From a bacterium (GTDB lineage Bacteria; CSSED10-310; JAJRTK01): DNA of 29,948 bases. Location: assembly GCA_024278345.1 (NCBI GenBank), contig JAJRTK010000292.1:1-29948 (forward strand), written 5' to 3'. A model generated the notes under the pieces. The model saw only the letters and a list, made by a program, of their open reading frames with translations. It searched no databases and was not told the DNA's origin. The translations under genes were made by a program, and so were the position numbers. Shown here piece after piece: positions 2,355-23,796 of this stretch; the first letter of the stretch is position 1; each line of letters begins with the position of its first letter.

Positions 2355-3749
2355 ATGTCCGTGCTCATTAAGAATGGCCGTCTGGTCACGGCCGTGGACG
2401 ATTACTATGCGGACGTTTTCGTCCAGGGGGAGAAGATCGCCCTCATCGGCGCCGATCTGACCGTGGAAGCCGACACCGTCATCGATGCCGCCGGCAAACT
2501 AGTGATTCCGGGCGGGATCGATCCCCACACGCATCTTGACATGCCGTTTGGCGGCTCGTTTACCGCGGACGATTTCCAGAGCGGCACCAAGGCAGCCGCT
2601 TTTGGGGGCACCACGACCATCATCGACTTCGCTATTCAGACCCAGGGGCGCTCGACCCTCGAAGGACTCGATGCCTGGCACTCCCGGGCCGCCGGGAAGG
2701 CGACCATCGACTACGGCTTCCACATGATCGTCACCGACATGCCCGTGGAACGGCTGGGGGAGATCGACAAGCTGGTGGAGGAAGGCGTTACCTCGTACAA
2801 GATGTTCATGGCCTATCCCGGTGTGCTCTATGCCGATGACGCCACCCACTACCGGACCTATCGGAAGGCCGGGGAAGTGGGGGCCAGGATCTCTCTTCAC
2901 GCCGAAAATGGCATCGTCATCGACGAGATCATCAGGCGCGAAGTCGCCCGTGGTCACGTGACGCCCACGTGGCATGGCAAGACGCGCCCCTGCCGCCTGG
3001 CGGCGGAGGCGGTTTTTCGCGCGGCGGCCATGGCGGAAGTCGCCGAAGTTCCCCTCTACATCGTACACCTCGACTGCAACGATGCCCTGGTAGAAGTCAA
3101 ACGGGCCCGGGAGCGAGGTGTCGATATCCTATGTGAGACCTGTCCCCAGTACCTTTTCCTAGATGACAGCTTCTATGATCGCCCCAATTTTGAGGGTGCC
3201 AAGTGGGTCATGAGCCCGCCACTTCGTCATCGATCCAACAACGAGCCCCTTTGGGCCGGGCTGACCAAGGGCGACATTTCTCTGGTGGCCACCGACCACG
3301 CGCCCTTCAATTTCGAGGGCCAGAAGGAAATGGGTCGCGAGCTCTTTACCAAGATTCCCAACGGCGCTCCGGGAATCGAAAACAGGATGAGCCTTATTTA
3401 CCATGGCGGCGTGGTCCAGGGCCGTTTTGGCCTCAACCGCTTCGTCGAGGTAACTTCCACCGCCGCCGCCAAAATCTTTGGCATGTTTCCCAAAAAGGGA
3501 ACCATCGCCATTGGCAGTGACGCCGACATCGTGATCTTCGATCCCGACGTCCAGCGCACGATTTCCGCCAGCGATCCGGCGACACACCACATGCGCGTGG
3601 ATTACAGTGCATACGAGGGACTGGAGGTCCAAGGCTGGACGGAAACGGTCCTGAGCCGCGGTCGCGTCATCGTGCAGGATGGTCAGATGGTTCAAGACGG
3701 AGGAGGCAAATACATCAAGAGAGCCCGCTGTGGCGAGCTCCTGCGATAA
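2355..3749 (+). CDS. hydA: dihydropyrimidinase / D-hydantoinase
   Basis: Cyclic amidohydrolase that opens dihydropyrimidine or 5-substituted hydantoin rings to N-carbamoyl amino acids; a cytoplasmic metalloenzyme, normally tetrameric. The 464-residue length is typical. The binuclear metal site is complete: His58 and His60 in DPHTH, carboxylated-lysine candidate Lys149 in TSYKMFMAYPG, His182 in SLHAENG, His238 in VHLDCN, and Asp314 in ATDHAPF. The MAYPG tyrosine and MSPPLR segment match substrate-site positions of the family. AGGAG lies 7 bases before the ATG. No carbamoylase, dihydropyrimidine dehydrogenase or purine/pyrimidine permease gene is nearby, so whether it serves pyrimidine breakdown or hydantoin use cannot be told. 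It converges with the oxidoreductase at 3901. Confidence 0.95.
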   Translation: MSVLIKNGRLVTAVDDYYADVFVQGEKIALIGADLTVEADTVIDAAGKLVIPGGIDPHTHLDMPFGGSFTADDFQSGTKAAAFGGTTTIIDFAIQTQGRSTLEGLDAWHSRAAGKATIDYGFHMIVTDMPVERLGEIDKLVEEGVTSYKMFMAYPGVLYADDATHYRTYRKAGEVGARISLHAENGIVIDEIIRREVARGHVTPTWHGKTRPCRLAAEAVFRAAAMAEVAEVPLYIVHLDCNDALVEVKRARERGVDILCETCPQYLFLDDSFYDRPNFEGAKWVMSPPLRHRSNNEPLWAGLTKGDISLVATDHAPFNFEGQKEMGRELFTKIPNGAPGIENRMSLIYHGGVVQGRFGLNRFVEVTSTAAAKIFGMFPKKGTIAIGSDADIVIFDPDVQRTISASDPATHHMRVDYSAYEGLEVQGWTETVLSRGRVIVQDGQMVQDGGGKYIKRARCGELLR

Positions 3750-3900: not shown

Positions 3901-5490
3901 TCACGTATCGCCTCGGATGATGTCCGCCACCACACGGCGGGCTGCGATTTGCCCTGGGAGACCCGTCAACCCTCCGCCAGGGTGCGTGCCGGCACCGCAC
4001 AGGTAAAGGCCCTTCAAAGGCGTCTGATAGTTGGCATACCCAACGAAGGGTCGGAAGAAGAAGAGTTGGTCCGGCGCATGCTCGCCGTGAAAAACATGGC
4101 CACCGCTCACTCCGTAACGTCGTTCCAGGTCTTCGGGCGTCGTGACACGGCGGTGGACGATCTTCCCCACGAGGTCCGGGCAGACTCGAGCCAGAGTAGA
4201 AACAACGTGGTCACCGAGTTTTTCGCGTTCGAGTTCCCAACTGGAATCTCTGAGGTTCCTGGGAACGTATTGAACTTGGACAGAGGCAACGTGACGGCCG
4301 GAGGCAGCGAGACTCGGGTCAAAGGCCGTGGGAATCAGCATCTCTAGCCAGGGTGTTTCCGGAACTCGACCGTATTTGACCGCATCGGCGGCACGCTCCA
4401 TCACTTCCAGAGACTTGGCGGGCCGGATTGCCGACTGCAGCACCGTGCCGTCTCGGTCGTCCGAGTCTCCGAAGGTCGGCAATCCCGATAGCACCAGATC
4501 GACCTTGGCTGTCGCGCCATGGGTTCGCCAGCGGAAAACCTTCCACAGGAACCTCGGTTCCAGCATGGCCGGATCGCAAAGACCTAGGAAAGTACTTCGT
4601 GGGTCCAGGCTGGAGAGGATAACCTCACCGCTGATCGTCTCCCCGTTCTGAAGCTGGACACCTTTGATCCGGCCCTTTACGGCCAGAATCCTCTGGACCC
4701 GCGCCTCTTTCCGGATCGTTGCACCTGACGCCGTCGCCGAGTTGGCCAAAGCCCGCGCCAGTCCCCCGGGGCCGCCCCGAGGCCAGGATTTTTGCCGTCC
4801 CACGTTTTGGACCAGCCTTGCATGGAACCAGTTGAGGGTCGTGTGCGGCGCCCAGGGGCCGTGGTGGCTTCCAAGTGCGGCGTCACCCGCCAGACCGGCC
4901 TTGAGCAGCTCCGTCTCGAAGGTGTCGTTCAGGAAGTCCCGCAGACTCATGGGGATCCACCGAAAGAGGCGCATCATCTGGCTCTGCCCCAACCGTCGAA
5001 CCTTCGCGCCCAACCCCAGCCAATCCTTCAAGTCGGACCAGGAGCGAGAATCCTGCTCTTGAGGCGATTTGGAAAGAACCGGCTGAACGATGTTCGACAG
5101 ATCTTCCAGGAAGCCGCAAAGCTCCAAGTACCGGTCCGCGTCGGACCGGCTCGTTCCCCGGATTTCCGCGGCGGCTTCCTTGGGCTCCACCGGAAGGAGA
5201 AGACCGGCTCCATCGGCTTGAGGAACAAAGACACCGCCTTCCCGTGGAAGAACCTCCAACCCGTGCCGGGCGAGCTGGAGCTCATGGCACAGGGGTGAAT
5301 CCAAGATTCCTGTCCCATGGTGCATGGCGGGAACCCGGCAGCCGTCGGGCAGCTCCTCCGTGGCCCCGAGGCCGCCTAGAACCGAGCGCGCCTCCAGCAC
5401 CAGCGGCCGGTGCCCCGCTCGCGCCAGAATCGCCGCTGCCACAAGGCCGTTAAATCCCCCGCCGACGATGATGATCTCCGTTGTTGCCAA
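3901..5490 (-). CDS. FAD-dependent oxidoreductase, PYROXD2/phytoene-desaturase-like
   Basis: Flavoprotein of the amine oxidase/phytoene desaturase superfamily, 529 residues. The N-terminal Rossmann dinucleotide-binding motif VGGGFNGLVAA is at residues 9-19, followed by the acidic ribose-binding residue in VLEARSVLGG. The C-terminus carries the second FAD contact, GAGTHPGGGLTGLPG, preceded by GGHVFHGEHAPDQLFF, a signature of the PYROXD2-like branch rather than true carotenoid desaturases. The start is TTG at 5490: GGAG sits six bases upstream and MATTEIIIVGGG gives the usual short lead into the Rossmann fold, while no ATG is suitably placed. No phytoene synthase or other carotenoid gene is adjacent, so the substrate is unknown. 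A sigma-70-like promoter lies about 360 bases upstream. Confidence 0.85.
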   Translation of the reverse strand: MATTEIIIVGGGFNGLVAAAILARAGHRPLVLEARSVLGGLGATEELPDGCRVPAMHHGTGILDSPLCHELQLARHGLEVLPREGGVFVPQADGAGLLLPVEPKEAAAEIRGTSRSDADRYLELCGFLEDLSNIVQPVLSKSPQEQDSRSWSDLKDWLGLGAKVRRLGQSQMMRLFRWIPMSLRDFLNDTFETELLKAGLAGDAALGSHHGPWAPHTTLNWFHARLVQNVGRQKSWPRGGPGGLARALANSATASGATIRKEARVQRILAVKGRIKGVQLQNGETISGEVILSSLDPRSTFLGLCDPAMLEPRFLWKVFRWRTHGATAKVDLVLSGLPTFGDSDDRDGTVLQSAIRPAKSLEVMERAADAVKYGRVPETPWLEMLIPTAFDPSLAASGRHVASVQVQYVPRNLRDSSWELEREKLGDHVVSTLARVCPDLVGKIVHRRVTTPEDLERRYGVSGGHVFHGEHAPDQLFFFRPFVGYANYQTPLKGLYLCGAGTHPGGGLTGLPGQIAARRVVADIIRGDT

Positions 5491-12655: not shown

Positions 12656-14092
12656 TCAGCTCAGGAATCCGTTGGCAAAAGAGAGAAACGCAAAGATGTC
12701 GGCAAAGTTCGTCACCGAACCCACGGAGACGCGAACGGCACCTGTCCCCTTGCTATCGATACAGCTCCTGAAATTCTCGTAAGTCAGCTCCTCTTCCTGC
12801 TTCAATGGCCGGAAGCAGCTCACGATCTCGTCCCTGGAAAGCCCCAACGCCAGTTCTCCCGCGCCAGGATTGCAAAAGCAACCCGTCCGCAAAGAGATCA
12901 TCTGTTTGTTCGCCCCCCCCTCGATGACCTCGTGATCAATGATTCCCCCTTCGGCAGTGAGAAAATTAACCGTAATCGTCCCTCCACGACCGTGGCGATC
13001 CCGAGGCCCATAGAGCAGGATGAGCGGGCGACCGTTCTTGTGCCGAAGCGACAACAGCCCTTCGATGAGCCAATGGGCCAAGCAAAGCACACGGTCATGG
13101 ATCATGTCGAGACCCACGGCATCGACAAAATCCAAACCAAACTCCACCGCCGGGATGTTCGTATAATCCAACGTTCCATCCTCGAAGGCCGGCGGACCCG
13201 ACACCAAGGAGTAAAGATCCGCCTGGACCGAAGCAACCGCTATGGTCCCGCCAGCAAACCAGGGCCGGTGGAGCTTGTCCAAAGCCTCCCGCCTGCCAAT
13301 GAGCGCGCCGACACCCGTGGGGTAACCGAACATCTTGTAGAATGAGAGAGCTACGTAGTCGGGATGCACCTGCCCAAGATCAAGGCGGTTCGTGGGGACA
13401 AACGCCGCCGCGTCAAGGAGCACGTCCCAACCCATGGAATGAGCCAGCTCAATCCACTCCAAAGGATGCTGCACTCCGGAGAAATTCGACTGCGCGGGAT
13501 AGGCAAAAAGCTTGTTCTCCCCACTACAGGGCCGACTGAGGTAACACTTGATCGTCGCCCAAGGAACCCGCAAAAGCGGCGGTTCCAGCGGTACATACAT
13601 CGTTTCGGCACCGCGAACCCGATCAAATTCACGGATGCCGTTCACCGAATTGTGATTGTCAAAGGTCAACAAGAACCGGTCGTCCTTGCCAAACGGATAG
13701 GACTCCCCCACAAGTTTCAACGCCTGGCTCGCGTTGGCTGTGAAGATGACCGCATATTCATCGGGAGAAGCATTAAAAAACTCCAGCACGCGACCACGGC
13801 ACCGCTCGATCCGCTCGGTTGTGGCCAGAGAAGTCGGGTTCGACGAGTGGGGGTTCCCGAAAACCGTCCCCAGCAATAGCTCCGTGTGCCTTCGAACCTG
13901 GCTCTCGGCATAGAGCCCGCCGCCGGTGTAGTCCAGGTAAACATGCCCCTCGGCATCCAGCCTGGAAAAATCGCGCGACCGAAGCTCGTCCAAGGAGAGG
14001 GTCGCCTCATACTCAGGACATGCGGCCAGGAAGGCCTGATAACTTTGCTCCATATCGGCTTCTGGAGGAAAACGGCCGTCGAAAGCGGTCAT
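12656..14092 (-). CDS. class V PLP enzyme, molybdenum-cofactor-sulfurase-like
   Basis: A 478-residue class V aminotransferase/cysteine-desulfurase-fold protein. Its closest motif matches are to the N-terminal domain of MoCo sulfurase: YLDYTGGGLYAESQ near residue 52, FGNPHSSNPTS near 78, the PLP lysine in SFYKMFGYPTGVGAL (Lys253), and LRTGCFCNPGA with Cys405 and Cys407. In the known enzymes this cysteine region carries the persulfide taken from L-cysteine. The MOSC domain of full-length MoCo sulfurases is absent, and no MOSC protein, molybdenum enzyme or Suf/Isc gene is in the window. It may act as a stand-alone cysteine desulfurase or a related lyase. AGGAG precedes the ATG by 8 bases. The regulator gene follows 160 bases downstream on the same strand, so co-transcription is possible. 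Confidence 0.8.
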   Translation of the reverse strand: MTAFDGRFPPEADMEQSYQAFLAACPEYEATLSLDELRSRDFSRLDAEGHVYLDYTGGGLYAESQVRRHTELLLGTVFGNPHSSNPTSLATTERIERCRGRVLEFFNASPDEYAVIFTANASQALKLVGESYPFGKDDRFLLTFDNHNSVNGIREFDRVRGAETMYVPLEPPLLRVPWATIKCYLSRPCSGENKLFAYPAQSNFSGVQHPLEWIELAHSMGWDVLLDAAAFVPTNRLDLGQVHPDYVALSFYKMFGYPTGVGALIGRREALDKLHRPWFAGGTIAVASVQADLYSLVSGPPAFEDGTLDYTNIPAVEFGLDFVDAVGLDMIHDRVLCLAHWLIEGLLSLRHKNGRPLILLYGPRDRHGRGGTITVNFLTAEGGIIDHEVIEGGANKQMISLRTGCFCNPGAGELALGLSRDEIVSCFRPLKQEEELTYENFRSCIDSKGTGAVRVSVGSVTNFADIFAFLSFANGFLS

Positions 14093-14691: not shown

Positions 14692-15612
14692 ATGAACGCG
14701 GTTGAGCTGGAAAAGGTGACGAAACGCTTTGGGACCCACGTGGCGGTGGACAGCCTGGACTTGGTGGTGCCAAAAGGCACAATCTATGGATTCATCGGCC
14801 CCAACGGATCGGGCAAGACGACCACGCTTCGAATGATCCTCCGGATCTTTCACCCCGATGAGGGGCGGATCCGGGTCATGGGCATCGAGAGAGGAAGCGC
14901 CGCCGATAACCAGGTGGGCTACCTCCCGGAAGAGCGTGGCCTCTACCGAAAGATGCGAGTTCGGGAACAACTCCAATTCTATGCCGCGCTCAAGGGGTTA
15001 CGGCGGAACCGGAAAGTGGTGGATGAATGGCTCGAGCGATTCGGCCTGGCGGAGTGGGCGGACAAGAAAGTGGAGGTGCTGTCCAAGGGGATGAGCCAAA
15101 AGGTGCAGTTCATCGCGGCGGTGGTCTCCCGCCCCGTGCTGGTGATCCTCGACGAGCCGTTTAGCGGCCTGGACCCCGTAAACATGGAAGCGTTGAAAGA
15201 TGCAGTCATCGAATTGCGGCGAAATGGATCCACCATCATCTTCTCCACGCACGACATGGAGATTGCGGAACGGATGTGCGACACGATCTTCATGATTTTC
15301 CAGGGGCGAAAGGTCCTTGATGGCACGCTGGCGGAGATCCAGGCCCAGTATGGGGAAGACGTCATCCGAGTGCGCGCCGCCGCCACGGAAAAAGATCTGG
15401 CCAAGATCCAGGGAGTGGCGCGGGTCAACGACTATGGACAAACCATGGAGCTCCGGATGGAAAAAGAAGCCGACTCCCAACAAATCTTGCGGGAATTGAC
15501 AGCCATTGGCCGGGTGGAGCGCTTCGAGCTGGCGCGGCCAGCGCTTCACGACATCTTCGTCCGCATCGCTGGACAGGAAGACCACCGTGAAGGAGGTGGG
15601 GCAAATGCATAA
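14692..15612 (+). CDS. ABC transporter ATP-binding protein (NatA-like)
   Basis: Cytoplasmic ATPase subunit of an ABC-2-type exporter, 306 residues. From the ATG at 14692: Walker A GPNGSGKT at 36-43, Q-loop region YLPEERGLY at 78-85 (the form usual in NatA-like ATPases), signature LSKGMSQ at 130-136, Walker B VILDEP at 151-156, and switch His187. A roughly 85-residue C-terminal domain follows, as is usual for drug- or Na+-export relatives. I chose MNAVELEKVTKRFG as the start because it begins the ABC fold directly and has AGGCGG just upstream; the frame stays open to 14638. It overlaps the permease gene by 8 bases, so the two form a translationally coupled pair. Substrate unknown. Confidence 0.9.
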   Translation: MNAVELEKVTKRFGTHVAVDSLDLVVPKGTIYGFIGPNGSGKTTTLRMILRIFHPDEGRIRVMGIERGSAADNQVGYLPEERGLYRKMRVREQLQFYAALKGLRRNRKVVDEWLERFGLAEWADKKVEVLSKGMSQKVQFIAAVVSRPVLVILDEPFSGLDPVNMEALKDAVIELRRNGSTIIFSTHDMEIAERMCDTIFMIFQGRKVLDGTLAEIQAQYGEDVIRVRAAATEKDLAKIQGVARVNDYGQTMELRMEKEADSQQILRELTAIGRVERFELARPALHDIFVRIAGQEDHREGGGANA

Positions 15613-16918
15613 AATCTGGATCATATCGAAGCGGGAATACCTGGCCATGGTCCGCACGAAGACCTTCATCGTGACCATCGTGTTGATGCCGTTATTGATG
15701 CTGGGCGGCATCCTGGCGCAAGAGTTCCTGGAAGGCCGAATCGACATTTCCGACAAGCACGTGGTGGTCATCGATCCCACCGGCCGGCTGATGCCGGGCA
15801 TGCAAGCCACGGCAGAGCGGCGAAACCTTTACGAGGTCTTCGACAAGAAGAGTGGACACCAGGTTTCCTCCAAGTTCGTGCTGGAAAGCGGGTCGAACAA
15901 GCCGTTGACCGACGAGGAACATCTGGCACTCTCGGAACGGGTCCGAAAAGGGGAGCTCTTCGCTTTCCTGGAAATCTACCCCGATATCCTAGAGCAGCGG
16001 GAGCTGGGGCGCCTGGAAACGAAGGCCGTGGTCTACTCCGAGAGTCTGGGGGCGGGATCACTGCGAAGATGGGTGTTTCTCTCGGTAAACGCGGCACTCC
16101 AGTCGGTGCGGCTGGCCGAGGCGGGGATCGATGCCATGGTGGTCATGCAGGCGATGGCTCCCGTGGACGTGGAAAATCTCGGCCTCAGCACCCGGACATC
16201 CGACGGGAAGATCAAGAGGGCGAACAAGGCGAGCCGGAAAGTCGCACAGCTCGTTCCCTTCGCAATCCTGATGCTCATGTTCATGACGATCATGATCGTG
16301 GCGAACCCGATGCTCCAAAGCGTCATCGAAGAAAAACAACAGCGCATCGCCGAAGTGCTTCTAGGATCGGCCCAGCCCTTCGATATCATGATGGGAAAAC
16401 TCCTGGGCAACGTGGGCGTGGCGCTGACTCTCCTTGTGGTTTACGGCTTTGGCGGGGTCTTTTGGGCCAGCCGGTACGACATGCTCGAGATCATGCCCCT
16501 TCACCTCGCTGGCTGGATCCTGGCATACGAAGTACTGGCCGTCATGCTCTACGGATCGGTCTTCATCGCCATCGGGGCCGCCGTCTCGGAACAGCGAGAA
16601 GCTCAAAGCCTGCTGACTCCAGTGGTCATGGTGATGATCTTCCCTCTTATGGTCTGGTTCGAAATCCTTCGGGAGCCCATGGGCGGTTTCGCCACCTGGC
16701 TCTCCCTCTTTCCCCCGGCGACTCCCATGCTGATGCCCATGCGATTGTGCGCCACTTCCGCGGTTCCCTTGTGGCAGCCCCTCTTGGGAATCGCCATCGT
16801 CCTACTCTCCACCCTTGCGACGGTTTGGGCCGCGGGACGGGTCTTCCGAATCGGCATCCTGGCCCAGGGCAAGGCGCCGAAACCGCGAGAGCTCATCCGC
16901 TGGATCCTGCGGGGCTAA
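15605..16918 (+). CDS. ABC-2 transporter permease (NatB-like)
   Basis: Membrane subunit partnering the ATPase just upstream, 437 residues. There is one transmembrane helix at about 20-38, then a large extracytoplasmic domain of about 180 residues. A C-terminal bundle of hydrophobic helices follows, starting near LVPFAILMLMFMTIMIV. The loop segment IEEKQQRIAEVLLGS after that first helix of the bundle is the typical NatB/ABC2_membrane_3 motif that contacts the ATPase. GGAGG lies 7-8 bases before the ATG, and the start lies inside the last codons of the ATPase gene. Likely an exporter of ions, drugs or lipids; the sequence does not fix which. Confidence 0.88.
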   Translation: MHKIWIISKREYLAMVRTKTFIVTIVLMPLLMLGGILAQEFLEGRIDISDKHVVVIDPTGRLMPGMQATAERRNLYEVFDKKSGHQVSSKFVLESGSNKPLTDEEHLALSERVRKGELFAFLEIYPDILEQRELGRLETKAVVYSESLGAGSLRRWVFLSVNAALQSVRLAEAGIDAMVVMQAMAPVDVENLGLSTRTSDGKIKRANKASRKVAQLVPFAILMLMFMTIMIVANPMLQSVIEEKQQRIAEVLLGSAQPFDIMMGKLLGNVGVALTLLVVYGFGGVFWASRYDMLEIMPLHLAGWILAYEVLAVMLYGSVFIAIGAAVSEQREAQSLLTPVVMVMIFPLMVWFEILREPMGGFATWLSLFPPATPMLMPMRLCATSAVPLWQPLLGIAIVLLSTLATVWAAGRVFRIGILAQGKAPKPRELIRWILRG

Positions 16919-16975: not shown

Positions 16976-18433
16976 ATGCTGGAGTTTTTCGCCGATGCAT
17001 GGCAGTACATCGCCGGAGCGCTCACGGTGACGATGACCCTAGTGGCCTCCATCCACGCCATTCTCTACAAGCGAGACGGTCGATCGGCCGTGGGCTGGGT
17101 GGGCGTGATTTGGCTGGTTCCAGTCTTGGGGGCGGTCTTTTACGTGCTTTTGGGCATCAACCGCGTGCGGCGGAAGGCGGCGGGACTTCGCACACCGGAA
17201 AGACAAGGACCGCCGGTCTCCATCGTGGCGGCGTTCCATGGGGAAAGGCTCGCTCGGCAGTTGGGTCCCAAGCGAGCACACCTCACCAACCTCGCCCAGC
17301 TCTCGGATCGGGTGGGCCGGTGGCCCTTGGTGTGGAACAACCGCATCGAGCCGCTACACAACGGAGACGAGGCCTTTCCCCGAATGCTGGAGGCGATCCG
17401 GTCCGCCACTCGATCCGTGGCTCTGGCCACCTACATCTTTGACAACGGCGTCACGGGAAAACAGTTCTCAACGGCCCTTGCCGACGCGGTCCGGCGAGGA
17501 GTCGAAGTCCGCGTCATCGTCGATGGAATCGGTGTGCGCTATACCTGGCCGTCGGTGCTTCGCTCCTTCCACGCGGCAGGAGTGCCCTACGCTATCTTCG
17601 TCTCCACCCGGGTCCCGTGGCCCCTCCGGATGCCCTATTTCAACCTCCGCACTCACCGCAAAATCCTCGTAGTAGACGGCAAAATTGGATTCACCGGCGG
17701 CATGAACATCCGGGACGGCCACGTGATGGGCCTTCAACCGCGCTGGCCGATCCGCGACCTCCATTTCGAGCTGGAAGGCCCCGTCGTGCAACATGCCATG
17801 CGCACCTTTCAGGAAGACTGGTTTTTTTGCACCAGAGAACGATTGGAGGGCGAAACCTGGTTCCCCAACCTCCAGCCCGCCGGCTCGGTGGCGGCTCGAG
17901 GCATTCCCGACGGCCCCGACGAAGACTTCGACAAGCTCCGCTGGACAATCCTGGGCGCCCTGGCCTGCGCCCGGAAATCCGTTCGCATCGTCACCCCCTA
18001 TTTCCTGCCCGATCAATGGCTCATCACATCCCTCTCCGTCGCTGCCTTGCGGGGAGTCGATGTCGATATCATCCTTCCCGAGGAAAACAATCTCAATCTC
18101 GTCAAGTGGGCGTCAGCCGCCATCATGTGGCAAATTCTTGAACACGGCTGCCGGGTCTACCATACACCGCCGCCATTCGAGCACACGAAGCTCATGCTGG
18201 TAGACGGGGCATGGGCCCTCATCGGTTCCGCCAACTGGGATCCACGGAGCCTCCGCCTCAATTTCGAGTTCAATATCGAGTGCTATGACCGAGACTTGGT
18301 CCGCGGCCTGGAAAAGACAGTCCTCGAACGGATCCGACGCGCCCGGCGGCTGACCTGGCAAAAAAGTGAAGGCCGAAATTTTGCCACGCGCCTTCGAGAC
18401 GGTATCGCGAGGCTGTTCATCCCCTACCTCTAA
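16976..18433 (+). CDS. cls: cardiolipin synthase, phospholipase D family
   Basis: Inner-membrane enzyme that joins two phosphatidylglycerol molecules into cardiolipin plus glycerol, 485 residues. Two N-terminal membrane helices (about 8-30 and 38-60; PLDc_N type) precede two PLD domains. The catalytic HKD motifs are intact: THRKILVVD with His227, Lys229 and Asp234, and EHTKLMLVD with His403, Lys405 and Asp410. Each is followed by the usual downstream sequence, GFTGGMN and GSANWDPRS. Length and layout match Cls A/B-type enzymes. AGGAAG precedes the ATG by three to four bases. It lies 57 bases after the ABC permease and may share its transcript. Confidence 0.93.
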   Translation: MLEFFADAWQYIAGALTVTMTLVASIHAILYKRDGRSAVGWVGVIWLVPVLGAVFYVLLGINRVRRKAAGLRTPERQGPPVSIVAAFHGERLARQLGPKRAHLTNLAQLSDRVGRWPLVWNNRIEPLHNGDEAFPRMLEAIRSATRSVALATYIFDNGVTGKQFSTALADAVRRGVEVRVIVDGIGVRYTWPSVLRSFHAAGVPYAIFVSTRVPWPLRMPYFNLRTHRKILVVDGKIGFTGGMNIRDGHVMGLQPRWPIRDLHFELEGPVVQHAMRTFQEDWFFCTRERLEGETWFPNLQPAGSVAARGIPDGPDEDFDKLRWTILGALACARKSVRIVTPYFLPDQWLITSLSVAALRGVDVDIILPEENNLNLVKWASAAIMWQILEHGCRVYHTPPPFEHTKLMLVDGAWALIGSANWDPRSLRLNFEFNIECYDRDLVRGLEKTVLERIRRARRLTWQKSEGRNFATRLRDGIARLFIPYL

Positions 18434-18511
18434 CTCATATCCTTGAGCTTGGACGGCTATGTGCCAGACGCTTCAAAGCGTGCGCCTTGATTCGAGGGCG
18501 CTGAAAGGATC

Positions 18512-19660
18512 ATGAACATGCCCTTGAGAGGCCCCATTCCTTGGCATCCGAAAAGTCCGGTGACACGACTCCGCGCTCTCTTCATGAGGGAATCGCGGGG
18601 CTTTTGTCTTCGGTTTCTGCTCCTTGCCCTGCTGATCTGGGGGGCCGGACCGCGGAGGGTGGCGGCCAAGGCAGAAGTCGTGACGGTGGGGACGTACCTG
18701 CACAACATCGAAGATATCGACCTTGAGCACAACAACTATGAGCTCTCCTTCCAGCTTTGGATGAAGTGGGAAGGGGAGATCGACCCCACCGCCTCCTTCC
18801 GGTTCACCAACCTCATCGAAGAATGGGCCCTCACGTCCCGGCCGGTCTTCCCCATACCCATCGTGCTTCCCGATGGCCGGAAATATCAGCGTTTCGTCGT
18901 GGAAGGCAGGTTTTTTCACAAGTTTTGGCTCGGCACCTTCCCTCTGGACTGGCAAAAAGTGACGCTGGAGGTGGAGGACGAAAATCACACCACGGAAGAA
19001 CTTCTTTACGCGCCCGATCTTGAAAACAGCGGCATCCACCCCGATCTGACCATCCCCGGTTGGGAGATTCTGGAGATCTACAATGAAAGCAAAGCCGCCA
19101 ATTACGGATCGGATTTCGGTTCCGGTCTCGGCAAGGCCGCCACCTTTCCACACTACAGGTTCGGCGTCCGCATCGAGCGACCCGTGCGATTCTATTTCTT
19201 GAAGATCATGCCACCCATCGTCATCACCCTGCTTTGCTGCCTGACGATCTTCTTCGTCGATCCCCGCTACGTCGATGCCAGGCTCGGCACGCCCATCGCG
19301 GTGTTGCTGGCCGAGGTCTTCCTTCAGCTCAGCTTCACCAATTCATTGCCGGATGTGGCGATCCTCCTTCTCATCGATCACCTGTTCAATTTTTCCTACA
19401 CCATCATCTTCTTGTGCCTGGTGGTCTGCATTTGGACGACGCGGTTGGTGTCAAGGCTGGAGAAGCTGGAAGCCGAGGTGGATTCCGCGGATCCGGGAAC
19501 GGTAGAAGCAGTGAAAGAAGAGATCTCGGCCATGGAGTCCAGGCTTCGCCGCATCGACAGGTTCGCGGGCTTTGGTCTGACGGCTGTTTTTTTTCTTGGC
19601 CTGGCGGCCATCACCTTCGCCCTTCGCGGCGGCTATCTCCTGGAAATGTTAGGGCGCTAG
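18512..19660 (+). CDS. pentameric ligand-gated ion channel homologue (Cys-loop superfamily)
   Basis: Prokaryotic relative of Cys-loop receptors such as GLIC and ELIC, 382 residues. A signal-peptide-like segment spans about 31-54 (FCLRFLLLALLIW, then VAAKA), after an unusually long basic lead. The extracellular beta-sandwich (about 55-226) carries the YELSFQLWMKW strand and FPLD at 143-146, the conserved core of the former Cys loop; as in other prokaryotic members, the loop cysteines are absent. M1 (about 227-249) contains the expected proline, M2 is DARLGTPIAVLLAEVFLQL (256-274), M2-M3 reads TNSLPDV, and M3 is about 282-308. M4 is about 351-372. A charged 40-residue M3-M4 linker (311-350) is much longer than in GLIC or ELIC. 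AAAGGA precedes the ATG. Ligand and ion selectivity are unknown. Confidence 0.85.
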   Translation: MNMPLRGPIPWHPKSPVTRLRALFMRESRGFCLRFLLLALLIWGAGPRRVAAKAEVVTVGTYLHNIEDIDLEHNNYELSFQLWMKWEGEIDPTASFRFTNLIEEWALTSRPVFPIPIVLPDGRKYQRFVVEGRFFHKFWLGTFPLDWQKVTLEVEDENHTTEELLYAPDLENSGIHPDLTIPGWEILEIYNESKAANYGSDFGSGLGKAATFPHYRFGVRIERPVRFYFLKIMPPIVITLLCCLTIFFVDPRYVDARLGTPIAVLLAEVFLQLSFTNSLPDVAILLLIDHLFNFSYTIIFLCLVVCIWTTRLVSRLEKLEAEVDSADPGTVEAVKEEISAMESRLRRIDRFAGFGLTAVFFLGLAAITFALRGGYLLEMLGR

Positions 19661-19730: not shown

Positions 19731-20549
19731 TCAGGAAAAAAGTTCCGCCTGGCTCGTTCCCTCGGGAAGGATCTTGCTCCGCTTCCGACAAAGCTTGCGG
19801 AACCTGTGGGCCTCGTCCGGGTGAAGTGGCGAGGCGGGACCCGCAAACCGGCGCTCGAGCTCGCAAAGCTCTCTTTGGGAAGAGGCCTCTTCCATGTTTT
19901 GGAGAAGCTCGTAATACTGTGGAGAGAGAAGGCCAGCCGCCTCGCGGACCGCCAGCCAGGAGACCCGATGGGCCGGGGAAGCTCCCAGACTCCGGAGAGC
20001 CGAGAAATGGGCCTTGGTAGGGTAACCCTTGTGCTTGGCGAAACCGTAGCCCGGGAATTGCCGGTCCAGGTCTACCATGAGCCGGTCTCGGCGCTCCTTG
20101 GCCAGAATCGATGCCGCCGCGATACAAAGGTGAAGGCGATCTCCCTTGATGGGGCCTTGCTGCGGCAAATCGAGGGCGATTCTCCGGGCGTCCACCAGCA
20201 GGTAATCCGGGGAGGGCGTCAGCCCCAGGACCGCCCGCTTCATCGCTTCGAGGCCGGCCCGGTGGATATCCAGTTGGTCGATCTCCCCGGGGCCAATCTC
20301 CACGACACTGGTGGCGGTAGCCCGACGAAGGATCTCTCTTTCCAGCTCCCGCCGGTTCCTCTGGCTAAGGAGCTTGGAATCTTGGATGCCTTCCACGGAA
20401 AACCGAGGAGGCAAAATCACGGCAGCCGCCACGACGGGGCCGGCCAAAGGTCCCATCCCGGCCTCGTCCACCCCGGCCACGCGGGAAAAACCACGAGCCC
20501 AAAGCTCTTTATCCAGGAGACGATTGGGAAATTCTTTCGCAGGGGACAT
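19731..20549 (-). CDS. rnhB: ribonuclease HII with C-terminal extension
   Basis: Endonuclease that cuts the RNA strand of RNA-DNA hybrids and single ribonucleotides in DNA, 272 residues. Active-site carboxylates are Asp28 and Glu29 in AGVDEAGMGPLAGPV, Asp120 in LLVDARRI, and Asp155 in ASILAKERRD; GYPTKAH and HRVSW are also conserved. I start at the ATG at 20549, with GGAG seven bases upstream, because the frame further upstream has no RNase H resemblance. After the usual end near residue 204 it carries about 65 extra charged residues. It is divergent from the SGNH hydrolase, and its stop faces that of the channel gene across 70 bases. Confidence 0.93.
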   Translation of the reverse strand: MSPAKEFPNRLLDKELWARGFSRVAGVDEAGMGPLAGPVVAAAVILPPRFSVEGIQDSKLLSQRNRRELEREILRRATATSVVEIGPGEIDQLDIHRAGLEAMKRAVLGLTPSPDYLLVDARRIALDLPQQGPIKGDRLHLCIAAASILAKERRDRLMVDLDRQFPGYGFAKHKGYPTKAHFSALRSLGASPAHRVSWLAVREAAGLLSPQYYELLQNMEEASSQRELCELERRFAGPASPLHPDEAHRFRKLCRKRSKILPEGTSQAELFS

Positions 20550-20663
20550 CTTTTTTCTCCGGGGCAAGCGAGGGGTTTCCCCATTTTCGGAAAATCCTTC
20601 ATGATAGGCATCATCAACATGGGAATCGGACCACTGAAAAAGTCTATCCAATGGACGGGCATC

Positions 20664-22569: not shown

Positions 22570-23796
22570 ATGGAGTCTCTTTTTCGAGTGCCGGGAAAAC
22601 TGATGCTGGCCGGAGAATACGCGGTCCTGGATGGTTCTCCCGCCGTGGTGGCCGCAGTGGATCGGTATGTTGCGGTCCGGATAGAGCCCTGCCCCAGGGA
22701 AGAAGGGATTTCGTTTCGGTTGTGCCTCCCCGATGGCCAGGCGCTTTGGGTGGTCTTGGATCCATCCGTGCCTATTTCTCTTCCGGCGAAGGCCTATGAC
22801 CGTAATCCCCGCCGCGCTCCGGTTCCGAACCTCCTCCCGGAGCACGGGGCAGGAGAAGCAGTGCCCCCGCACAGCCACACGACGGCGATAGAGAACAATG
22901 ACCGACGATCCTCCATCCTTGCGCCTTGCCTTGAGATCCTGACGGCCCAATTGGGACCGGGTTGGCTACAAAAGGCCCGGTCTGCCCGGGTCACGGTGGA
23001 TTCCGCCGCCTTCGGCCAAGAGGCGCTGGGCCGTACAGAAAGGGTGAAGCTCGGTTTCGGCTCTAGCGCCGCCAGTGCCGTGGCTATTTTGGGGGCGCTC
23101 TTGGACCTCTGCCGCGGGATCGACGGAGCGCGGCAGGATCGGGATTTCCTGGTCAGCCTTGCGGACAAGGCGCACAGGGAGGCCCAAGGCGGCGTCGGGA
23201 GCGGCGCCGACGTGGCGGCTTCGGTCTACGGTGGGCTGATTCTCTACCGCCAGATAGCCACCGACGGCCGTTTCCTTCAAAAAGTCCAACCCATCTCTCC
23301 TACCCCCACTGGCTGCTGCGCCATTGCCTGCTGGACAGGGAAGTCCGCCAGCACGAAAGATCTCGTGGACAGGGTCTGGCGCTGGCGGCGCCATCAACCG
23401 GGGGCCTACCAAAGGCGGATGGCCGCGCTCTCCCAGGTTGCCTCCGGGATGGCCGGAGCCCTGGCCGCGGGCGATGGAAAGGATCTCCTTGCATCCGTGG
23501 ACGAAGGTTACGGCGCCATGGATCGGCTTGCCCGGGAGAGCGGTCTTCCCCTGGTTCTCGATGCCCACGTGGAGATCCGAAAACTTGCCAGACGTTTTGG
23601 GGGAACCGCCAAACCTACTGGCGCCGGCGGCGGAGACCTTGCCCTAGCCCTCCTTCCCTCCCGCCAGGCCGCGGAACGGTTCCTGGTCGATCTCTCCGGA
23701 ACCCCAGGAATCCCCATCCCCCTTGGCCTGGATCCCCATGGATTCGCCGAACAAACCTCGCCAACAAAGCGATCCCCGCGGTTCATCCAGCTCTGA
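22570..23796 (+). CDS. mvaK2: phosphomevalonate kinase (ERG8-type GHMP kinase)
   Basis: Cytosolic enzyme converting mevalonate 5-phosphate plus ATP to mevalonate 5-diphosphate, 408 residues. GHMP motifs: PGKLMLAGEYAVLDGSPAVV at 8-27, ATP loop LGFGSSAAS at 161-169, and TGAGGGD at 350-356. GGVGSGADVAAS (207-218) separates phosphomevalonate kinase from mevalonate and galactose kinases. The ATG at 22570 starts the first motif at the normal distance; AAGG is only a few bases upstream, so its RBS is weak. A His/Pro-rich segment (about 79-113) looks like an insertion. It converges with the decarboxylase gene (stop at 23876), so it is transcribed separately from the other two mevalonate genes. Confidence 0.88.
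   Translation: MESLFRVPGKLMLAGEYAVLDGSPAVVAAVDRYVAVRIEPCPREEGISFRLCLPDGQALWVVLDPSVPISLPAKAYDRNPRRAPVPNLLPEHGAGEAVPPHSHTTAIENNDRRSSILAPCLEILTAQLGPGWLQKARSARVTVDSAAFGQEALGRTERVKLGFGSSAASAVAILGALLDLCRGIDGARQDRDFLVSLADKAHREAQGGVGSGADVAASVYGGLILYRQIATDGRFLQKVQPISPTPTGCCAIACWTGKSASTKDLVDRVWRWRRHQPGAYQRRMAALSQVASGMAGALAAGDGKDLLASVDEGYGAMDRLARESGLPLVLDAHVEIRKLARRFGGTAKPTGAGGGDLALALLPSRQAAERFLVDLSGTPGIPIPLGLDPHGFAEQTSPTKRSPRFIQL

Follow-up and report, generated by a model that had tools for sequence, protein, structure and literature searches.

A clade of bacterial pentameric ligand-gated channels with a long charged M3-M4 linker predicted to form a helical hairpin

The window, i.e., the whole stretch of 29,948 nucleotides that was analysed, encodes a subunit of a pentameric ligand-gated ion channel (pLGIC) of 382 residues (P0001, ORF at 18512-19660, + strand) whose M3-M4 linker exceeds the most common length among bacterial members of the family by 24 residues. 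Proteins with linkers of this kind constitute a single clade, in which M3 and M4 are predicted to continue into a helical hairpin. The best explanation, to which a probability of roughly 0.55 is assigned, is that an ancestral insertion of about 24 residues provided this subfamily with cytoplasmic coiled-coil hairpins serving the stability or conductance of the channel.

P0001 is a pLGIC subunit, as proposed by the initial annotation from the sequence. It is matched by TIGR00860 (E-value 3.3e-14) and weakly by PF02932 (3.8e-4), both under their curated cut-offs. The best solved chain for P0001 by sequence is a GLIC/GABAA chimera (phmmer, 3.9e-9), the best PDB match of a profile of the 16-member subfamily is ELIC (7.5e-16), and a wider profile that takes in ten other bacterial pLGICs matches GLIC at 3.6e-52. 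In the AlphaFold2 model, one chain consists of an extracellular beta-sandwich and four transmembrane helices, and the top-ranking matches of this model in Foldseek and VIA are pLGIC chains only. All 1000 re-aligned chains reach a Z-score of at least 8, the best being sTeLIC, ELIC, and GLIC (Z 18-19); the rmsd values, for the most part 8-10 A across some 270 residues, are probably due to a differing angle between the two domains in a lone modelled chain. Pro144 and Asp146 (the FPxD of the Pro-loop), the pre-M1 residue Arg223, and Pro280 between M2 and M3 are invariant in 26 of 26 pLGIC sequences. The Pro-loop FFHKFWLGTFPLDWQK contains no cysteine and thus lacks the disulphide-forming cysteines that flank the animal Cys-loop.

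The start of the gene is marked by a Shine-Dalgarno-like stretch, GAAAGGA, a few bases 5' of the ATG (GCTGAAAGGATC, 18500-18511, + strand); no such stretch precedes the alternative start at Met25 (18584). Residues 1-53 (18512-18670, + strand) form a putative signal peptide with a long n-region, the hydrophobic core of which (residues 32-44) is helical in the model. The periplasmic beta-sandwich, a ligand-binding domain, follows at residues 54-222 (18671-19177, + strand), with AlphaFold2 strands at pLDDT mostly 85-98, and contains the Pro-loop GRFFHKFWLGTFPLDWQ (residues 132-148), a motif nearly invariant among the 16 subfamily members. In the model, M1 spans residues 225-248 (19184-19255, + strand), and the M2 pore helix was placed at residues 256-278 (19277-19345, + strand) by the GLIC alignment, conservation, and the model. 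With Pro280 counted as 23', M2 carries Asp255 at -2' (just ahead of the helix), Arg257 at 0', and Gly259 at 2', followed by Leu266 (9'), Phe270 (13'), and Leu273 (16'). All 16 members combine an acidic residue (-2') with Arg (0'), Gly (2'), and Leu (9'), and the acidic -2' position, aligned with the Glu of GLIC at -2', suggests by analogy that the channels of the subfamily are selective for cations. The P0001 channel is probably both homopentameric and cation-selective.

The length of the linker was determined between two anchors found in almost every bacterial pLGIC, an Asp close to where M3 begins (Asp289) and the Asp of the [IL]DR..R motif just ahead of M4 (Asp349), and was counted in the 97 bacterial pLGICs that allowed both to be located. 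This spacing amounts to 60 in P0001, where the long charged linker occupies residues 311-352 (19442-19567, + strand), against 36 in GLIC and 34 in ELIC (both counted on alignments), which bears out the contrast drawn by the initial annotation between a long charged linker and the very short loops of these two channels. Outside the subfamily, 70 of 81 bacterial pLGICs show a spacing of 35-37 (36 in 49, 35 in 15, and 37 in 6 proteins); the others range from 39 to 47, which is the maximum. P0001 also falls outside the abbreviated loops (less than 15 residues) of typical bacterial pLGICs. A second, smaller group (L048-L051) has a spacing of 44, apparently an independent extension by eight residues.

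Within the subfamily, 13 of 16 members (P0001 and 12 of its 15 relatives) have a spacing of exactly 60, and the others have 50, 61, or 77. As one member (L006/L025) has a linker shorter by 10 residues, the exact length is not essential. Both length and charge of the linker are conserved among the 16 members, with a near balanced charge in every one of them. These properties bear on the possibility that the extension is neutral, i.e., a tolerated elongation of helices that merely connects M3 and M4. Animal loops have been exchanged for a GLIC heptapeptide with function retained (PMC3335078), and sequence conservation is lower in the linker than in the core, as a neutral extension would allow; however, a constant spacing of 60 despite only 39-47% identity to P0001, together with a helix-compatible sequence and a maintained charge balance, suggests constraint and renders neutrality quite improbable.

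The seven close relatives of P0001 identified in a genome scan all come from Myxococcota metagenome-assembled genomes (MAGs) and share 43-49% identity with it. A profile search of 195 Myxococcota genomes found subfamily members in 14 of them and brought the subfamily to 16 proteins, P0001 and 15 from Myxococcota; none is encoded in seven other genomes of the window's own phylum, and 10 of 385 other sampled genomes contain other, more distant pLGICs or fragments. In a tree of 94 proteins, constructed from the region N-terminal to the linker (linker and M4 being omitted), all 16 long-linker proteins form one clade with a support of 1.0, and its sister group, the nearest neighbours in the tree, has a spacing of 36. 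The placement of all long linkers in one clade with a short-loop sister is most simply explained by a single insertion of about 24 residues in an ancestor.

Some pLGICs of other architectures were met among the proteins collected. Two from Myxococcota, L027 (1-2301, - strand) and L029 (1-2370, - strand), contain a family-5 solute-binding protein domain (SBP_bac_5, E-values 1e-32 and 2.7e-29, respectively) that is attached C-terminally to M4 and faces the periplasm. Similar long ORFs occur in G388, G459, G461-G463, G498, G501, and G540, the SBP_bac_5 domain being confirmed in L027 and L029 only. The accessible part of a 2004 survey describes PBP-I domains fused at the N-terminus and PBP-II encoded by separate genes within operons, and makes no mention of a C-terminal solute-binding fusion. 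L019 (1408-3357, - strand) is a pLGIC of 650 residues (PF02931, E-value 3e-16) whose roughly 340 N-terminal residues resemble, by eye, a HAD-phosphatase-type domain, with no Pfam match in this region. In the pLGIC-like proteins L009, L015, L016, and L018, the long N-terminal part has, on visual inspection, the look of a Cache sensor (with no Pfam match in L016); Cache fusions are already known.

Residues 311-350 of P0001 contain two heptad-like charged segments, RLVSRLEKLEAEV (311-323) and VEAVKEEISAMESRLRR (331-347), as described in the initial annotation. Hydrophobic residues recur at positions 309/312/316/319/323/326 and 334/338/341/345/348, while the charges lie at other positions, and this spacing in both segments would be compatible with an antiparallel two-helix coiled coil. 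At a period of 3.5, the heptad periodicity in P0001 alone corresponds to shuffle P values of 0.044 (residues 309-326) and 0.007 (residues 331-352); the family average is weaker (P 0.04-0.10, with values of 0.04 and 0.05 for the family mean), and in the L032-L036 group two of the seam positions, 338 and 341, are Arg and mostly Ala. Since this signal is only moderate, heptad periodicity was discarded as stand-alone proof, and structure prediction for two members was used as evidence; it is the conservation in the family and the predicted helices that back the two segments. The region of the turn is rich in Pro, Gly, Ser, and Asp in most relatives.

Single-chain AlphaFold2 models were obtained for P0001 (26 aligned sequences; mean pLDDT 87.8) and for L032, a divergent member with fewer large hydrophobic residues in the linker and prolines near the turn. 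In the P0001 model, M3 and its cytoplasmic extension form one unbroken helix (residues 283-325, 19358-19486, + strand), followed by the five-residue hairpin turn ADPGT (residues 326-330, 19487-19501, + strand) and by a second unbroken helix that comprises an extension similar to the MA helix of animal receptors and M4 (residues 331-381, 19502-19654, + strand). The pLDDT is 94-97 across residues 291-370, being about 94-96 in the M3 helix from residue 291 onwards, and declines to about 80 at the C-terminal end. The L032 model has the same layout (M3 at 250-288, M4 at 294-335, pLDDT 93-94). The linker is thus predicted to be an ordered helical hairpin in which the M3 and M4 helices are joined by a short turn; the two outcomes that the initial annotation regarded as contrary to its proposal, a disordered linker and a fold without the beta-sandwich and four helices, are not those of the model, with the linker at pLDDT 94-97 and the layout present. 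As AlphaFold2 readily gives long confident helices, the models do not prove coiled-coil contacts or the formation of a bundle. A match of PF11026 (DUF2721) to residues 310-371 (19439-19624 of the window), spanning the charged hairpin and M4, lies below threshold (E-value 8e-4, 19.8 bits, cut-off 28.3) and was seen in two of eight members; homology of the M3-linker-M4 hairpin to DUF2721 was rejected on these grounds, the match probably reflecting common composition instead.

According to the favoured explanation, P0001 is part of a pentameric ligand-gated channel that faces the periplasm, and the roughly 24 inserted residues would have lengthened M3 and M4 on the cytoplasmic side into an antiparallel coiled-coil hairpin of two helices. 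Five hairpins might surround the cytoplasmic mouth of the pore and clamp M4 to M3, potentially stabilizing the assembly and coupling M4 to gating, while their charged surfaces could create a short vestibule with an effect on the flow of ions, much like the MA helices in animal cation receptors. As in known members of the family, a periplasmic stimulus would open the cation pore; the default expectation for the ligand is a small periplasmic solute or ion that would open a cation leak. The roles in conductance and assembly are drawn from animal receptors only. Alternatively, the hairpin might act as a docking site, where the charged coiled coil is recognized by a partner in the cytoplasm or the membrane for clustering, localization, or signalling, and would then serve neither stability nor conductance. 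Animal M3-M4 loops bind gephyrin and RIC-3 (PMC549065; PMC9354082), and some charged positions of the linker are conserved (Arg/Lys311, Asp/Glu320, Arg/Lys344, and Asp/Asn349); yet docking appears unlikely, as the relatives share no conserved gene neighbour, the surface residues of the linker are more variable than the remainder of the protein, and the spacing varies (50, 60, 61, and 77).

The gene next to that of P0001 is cardiolipin synthase-like, as the initial annotation had recognized: it encodes a member of the PLD family (16976-18433, + strand; TIGR04265, E-value 8e-86, 288.9 bits against a cut-off of 290; PF13091, E-value 9.6e-46) and ends 78 bp upstream of the channel gene, in the same orientation. 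It is preceded in this strand run by an ABC-2 type transporter pair (14692-16918, + strand) comprising an ATPase (PF00005, with a DrrA-like C-terminus) and a permease (PF12698), while an RNase HII gene (19731-20570, - strand) lies downstream of the channel gene in convergent orientation. None of the cardiolipin synthase-like, transporter, and RNase HII genes was found in the flanks available for seven relatives (tblastn of the neighbouring genes against all loci and all-against-all flank comparison), and the neighbourhood therefore carries no functional weight. The possible lipid link raised by the initial annotation, a channel that senses lipids in functional connection with cardiolipin synthase, was consequently abandoned: apart from the adjacency in the window it would have to accommodate zero of seven relatives with the synthase nearby, and the ABC-2 pair in the same run implies that co-transcription need not mean shared function, which leaves this explanation very improbable. 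Elsewhere in the window are genes for a penicillin amidase (29-2038, + strand), an amidohydrolase (2355-3746, + strand), an amine oxidase-like protein (3901-5490, - strand), a class-V aminotransferase (12656-14092, - strand), and a GHMP kinase (22588-23793, + strand). The RNase HII shares 48-52% identity with Myxococcota genomes (E-values to 2.5e-58) and 43-49% with genomes of the same phylum (E-values to 1.3e-45); being somewhat closer to Myxococcota, it suggests that the MAG lineage may be near Myxococcota or that the contig may be a stray.

Among the known channels, GLIC, the proton-gated pLGIC of Gloeobacter, shares with the subfamily the fold, the Pro-loop, and the acidic -2' residue of M2, and its pre-M4 sequence ITRASRIAFP is related to the subfamily motif [IL]DR..R..FP. 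Its identity to P0001 is about 19-20% over the structural alignment, and approximately 16 residues of its loop A region, including the IWIPE stretch, are missing from the subfamily. ELIC and sTeLIC are the best structural matches of the P0001 model (Z 18.4-19.0); to our knowledge, neither contains a cytoplasmic hairpin. DeCLIC, which also comes from a former deltaproteobacterial lineage, has a pLGIC core like that of P0001. It carries in addition a two-lobed N-terminal domain (PMC9897478), whereas the first strand of P0001 begins at residue 55, directly after the signal peptide; a DeCLIC-like architecture, which the initial annotation had suggested for comparison, is thereby ruled out.

Bacterial pLGICs have been described as having, in every version, an abbreviated M3-M4 loop (Tasneem et al., PMC549065) of less than 15 residues (PMC3335078) and as lacking an intracellular domain (PMC9354082). 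The long-linker clade is an exception to these statements. No bacterial pLGIC with a long or coiled-coil linker was found in the open-access literature searched, and an earlier description elsewhere is possible.

The suggested likeness to the intracellular domain of animal receptors (5-HT3A, nAChR; features MA and MX as given in PMC9354082 and PMC3335078) holds in part. As with MA, M4 is prolonged into the cytoplasm as one continuous helix in the P0001 and L032 models. The MX helix, located at the membrane after M3 in animal receptors, is missing in P0001, where M3 is itself extended and is predicted to run on to residue 325, and the animal loop, mostly disordered and longer than 75 residues (PMC3335078), is replaced by a predicted five-residue turn within a region of pLDDT 94-97. 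The continuous M4 might be taken to indicate that the hairpin is homologous to the MA/MX domain and represents its ancestor; yet the MX helix and the long disordered loop are absent and the insertion is limited to one bacterial clade with a short-loop sister, so that an independent origin is far more likely and homology is scarcely credible. A bolder and less certain reading is that the five helical hairpins constitute an independently evolved, structured cytoplasmic domain, a stalk of ten helices that would lengthen the ion pathway and control conductance or gating. A clade with a short ordered hairpin would provide a compact model for the influence of cytoplasmic extensions on assembly, conductance, and gating, while the size and predominant disorder of the animal intracellular domain have made it hard to study. 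If the ten-helix stalk exists, it would be a minimal analogue of that domain.
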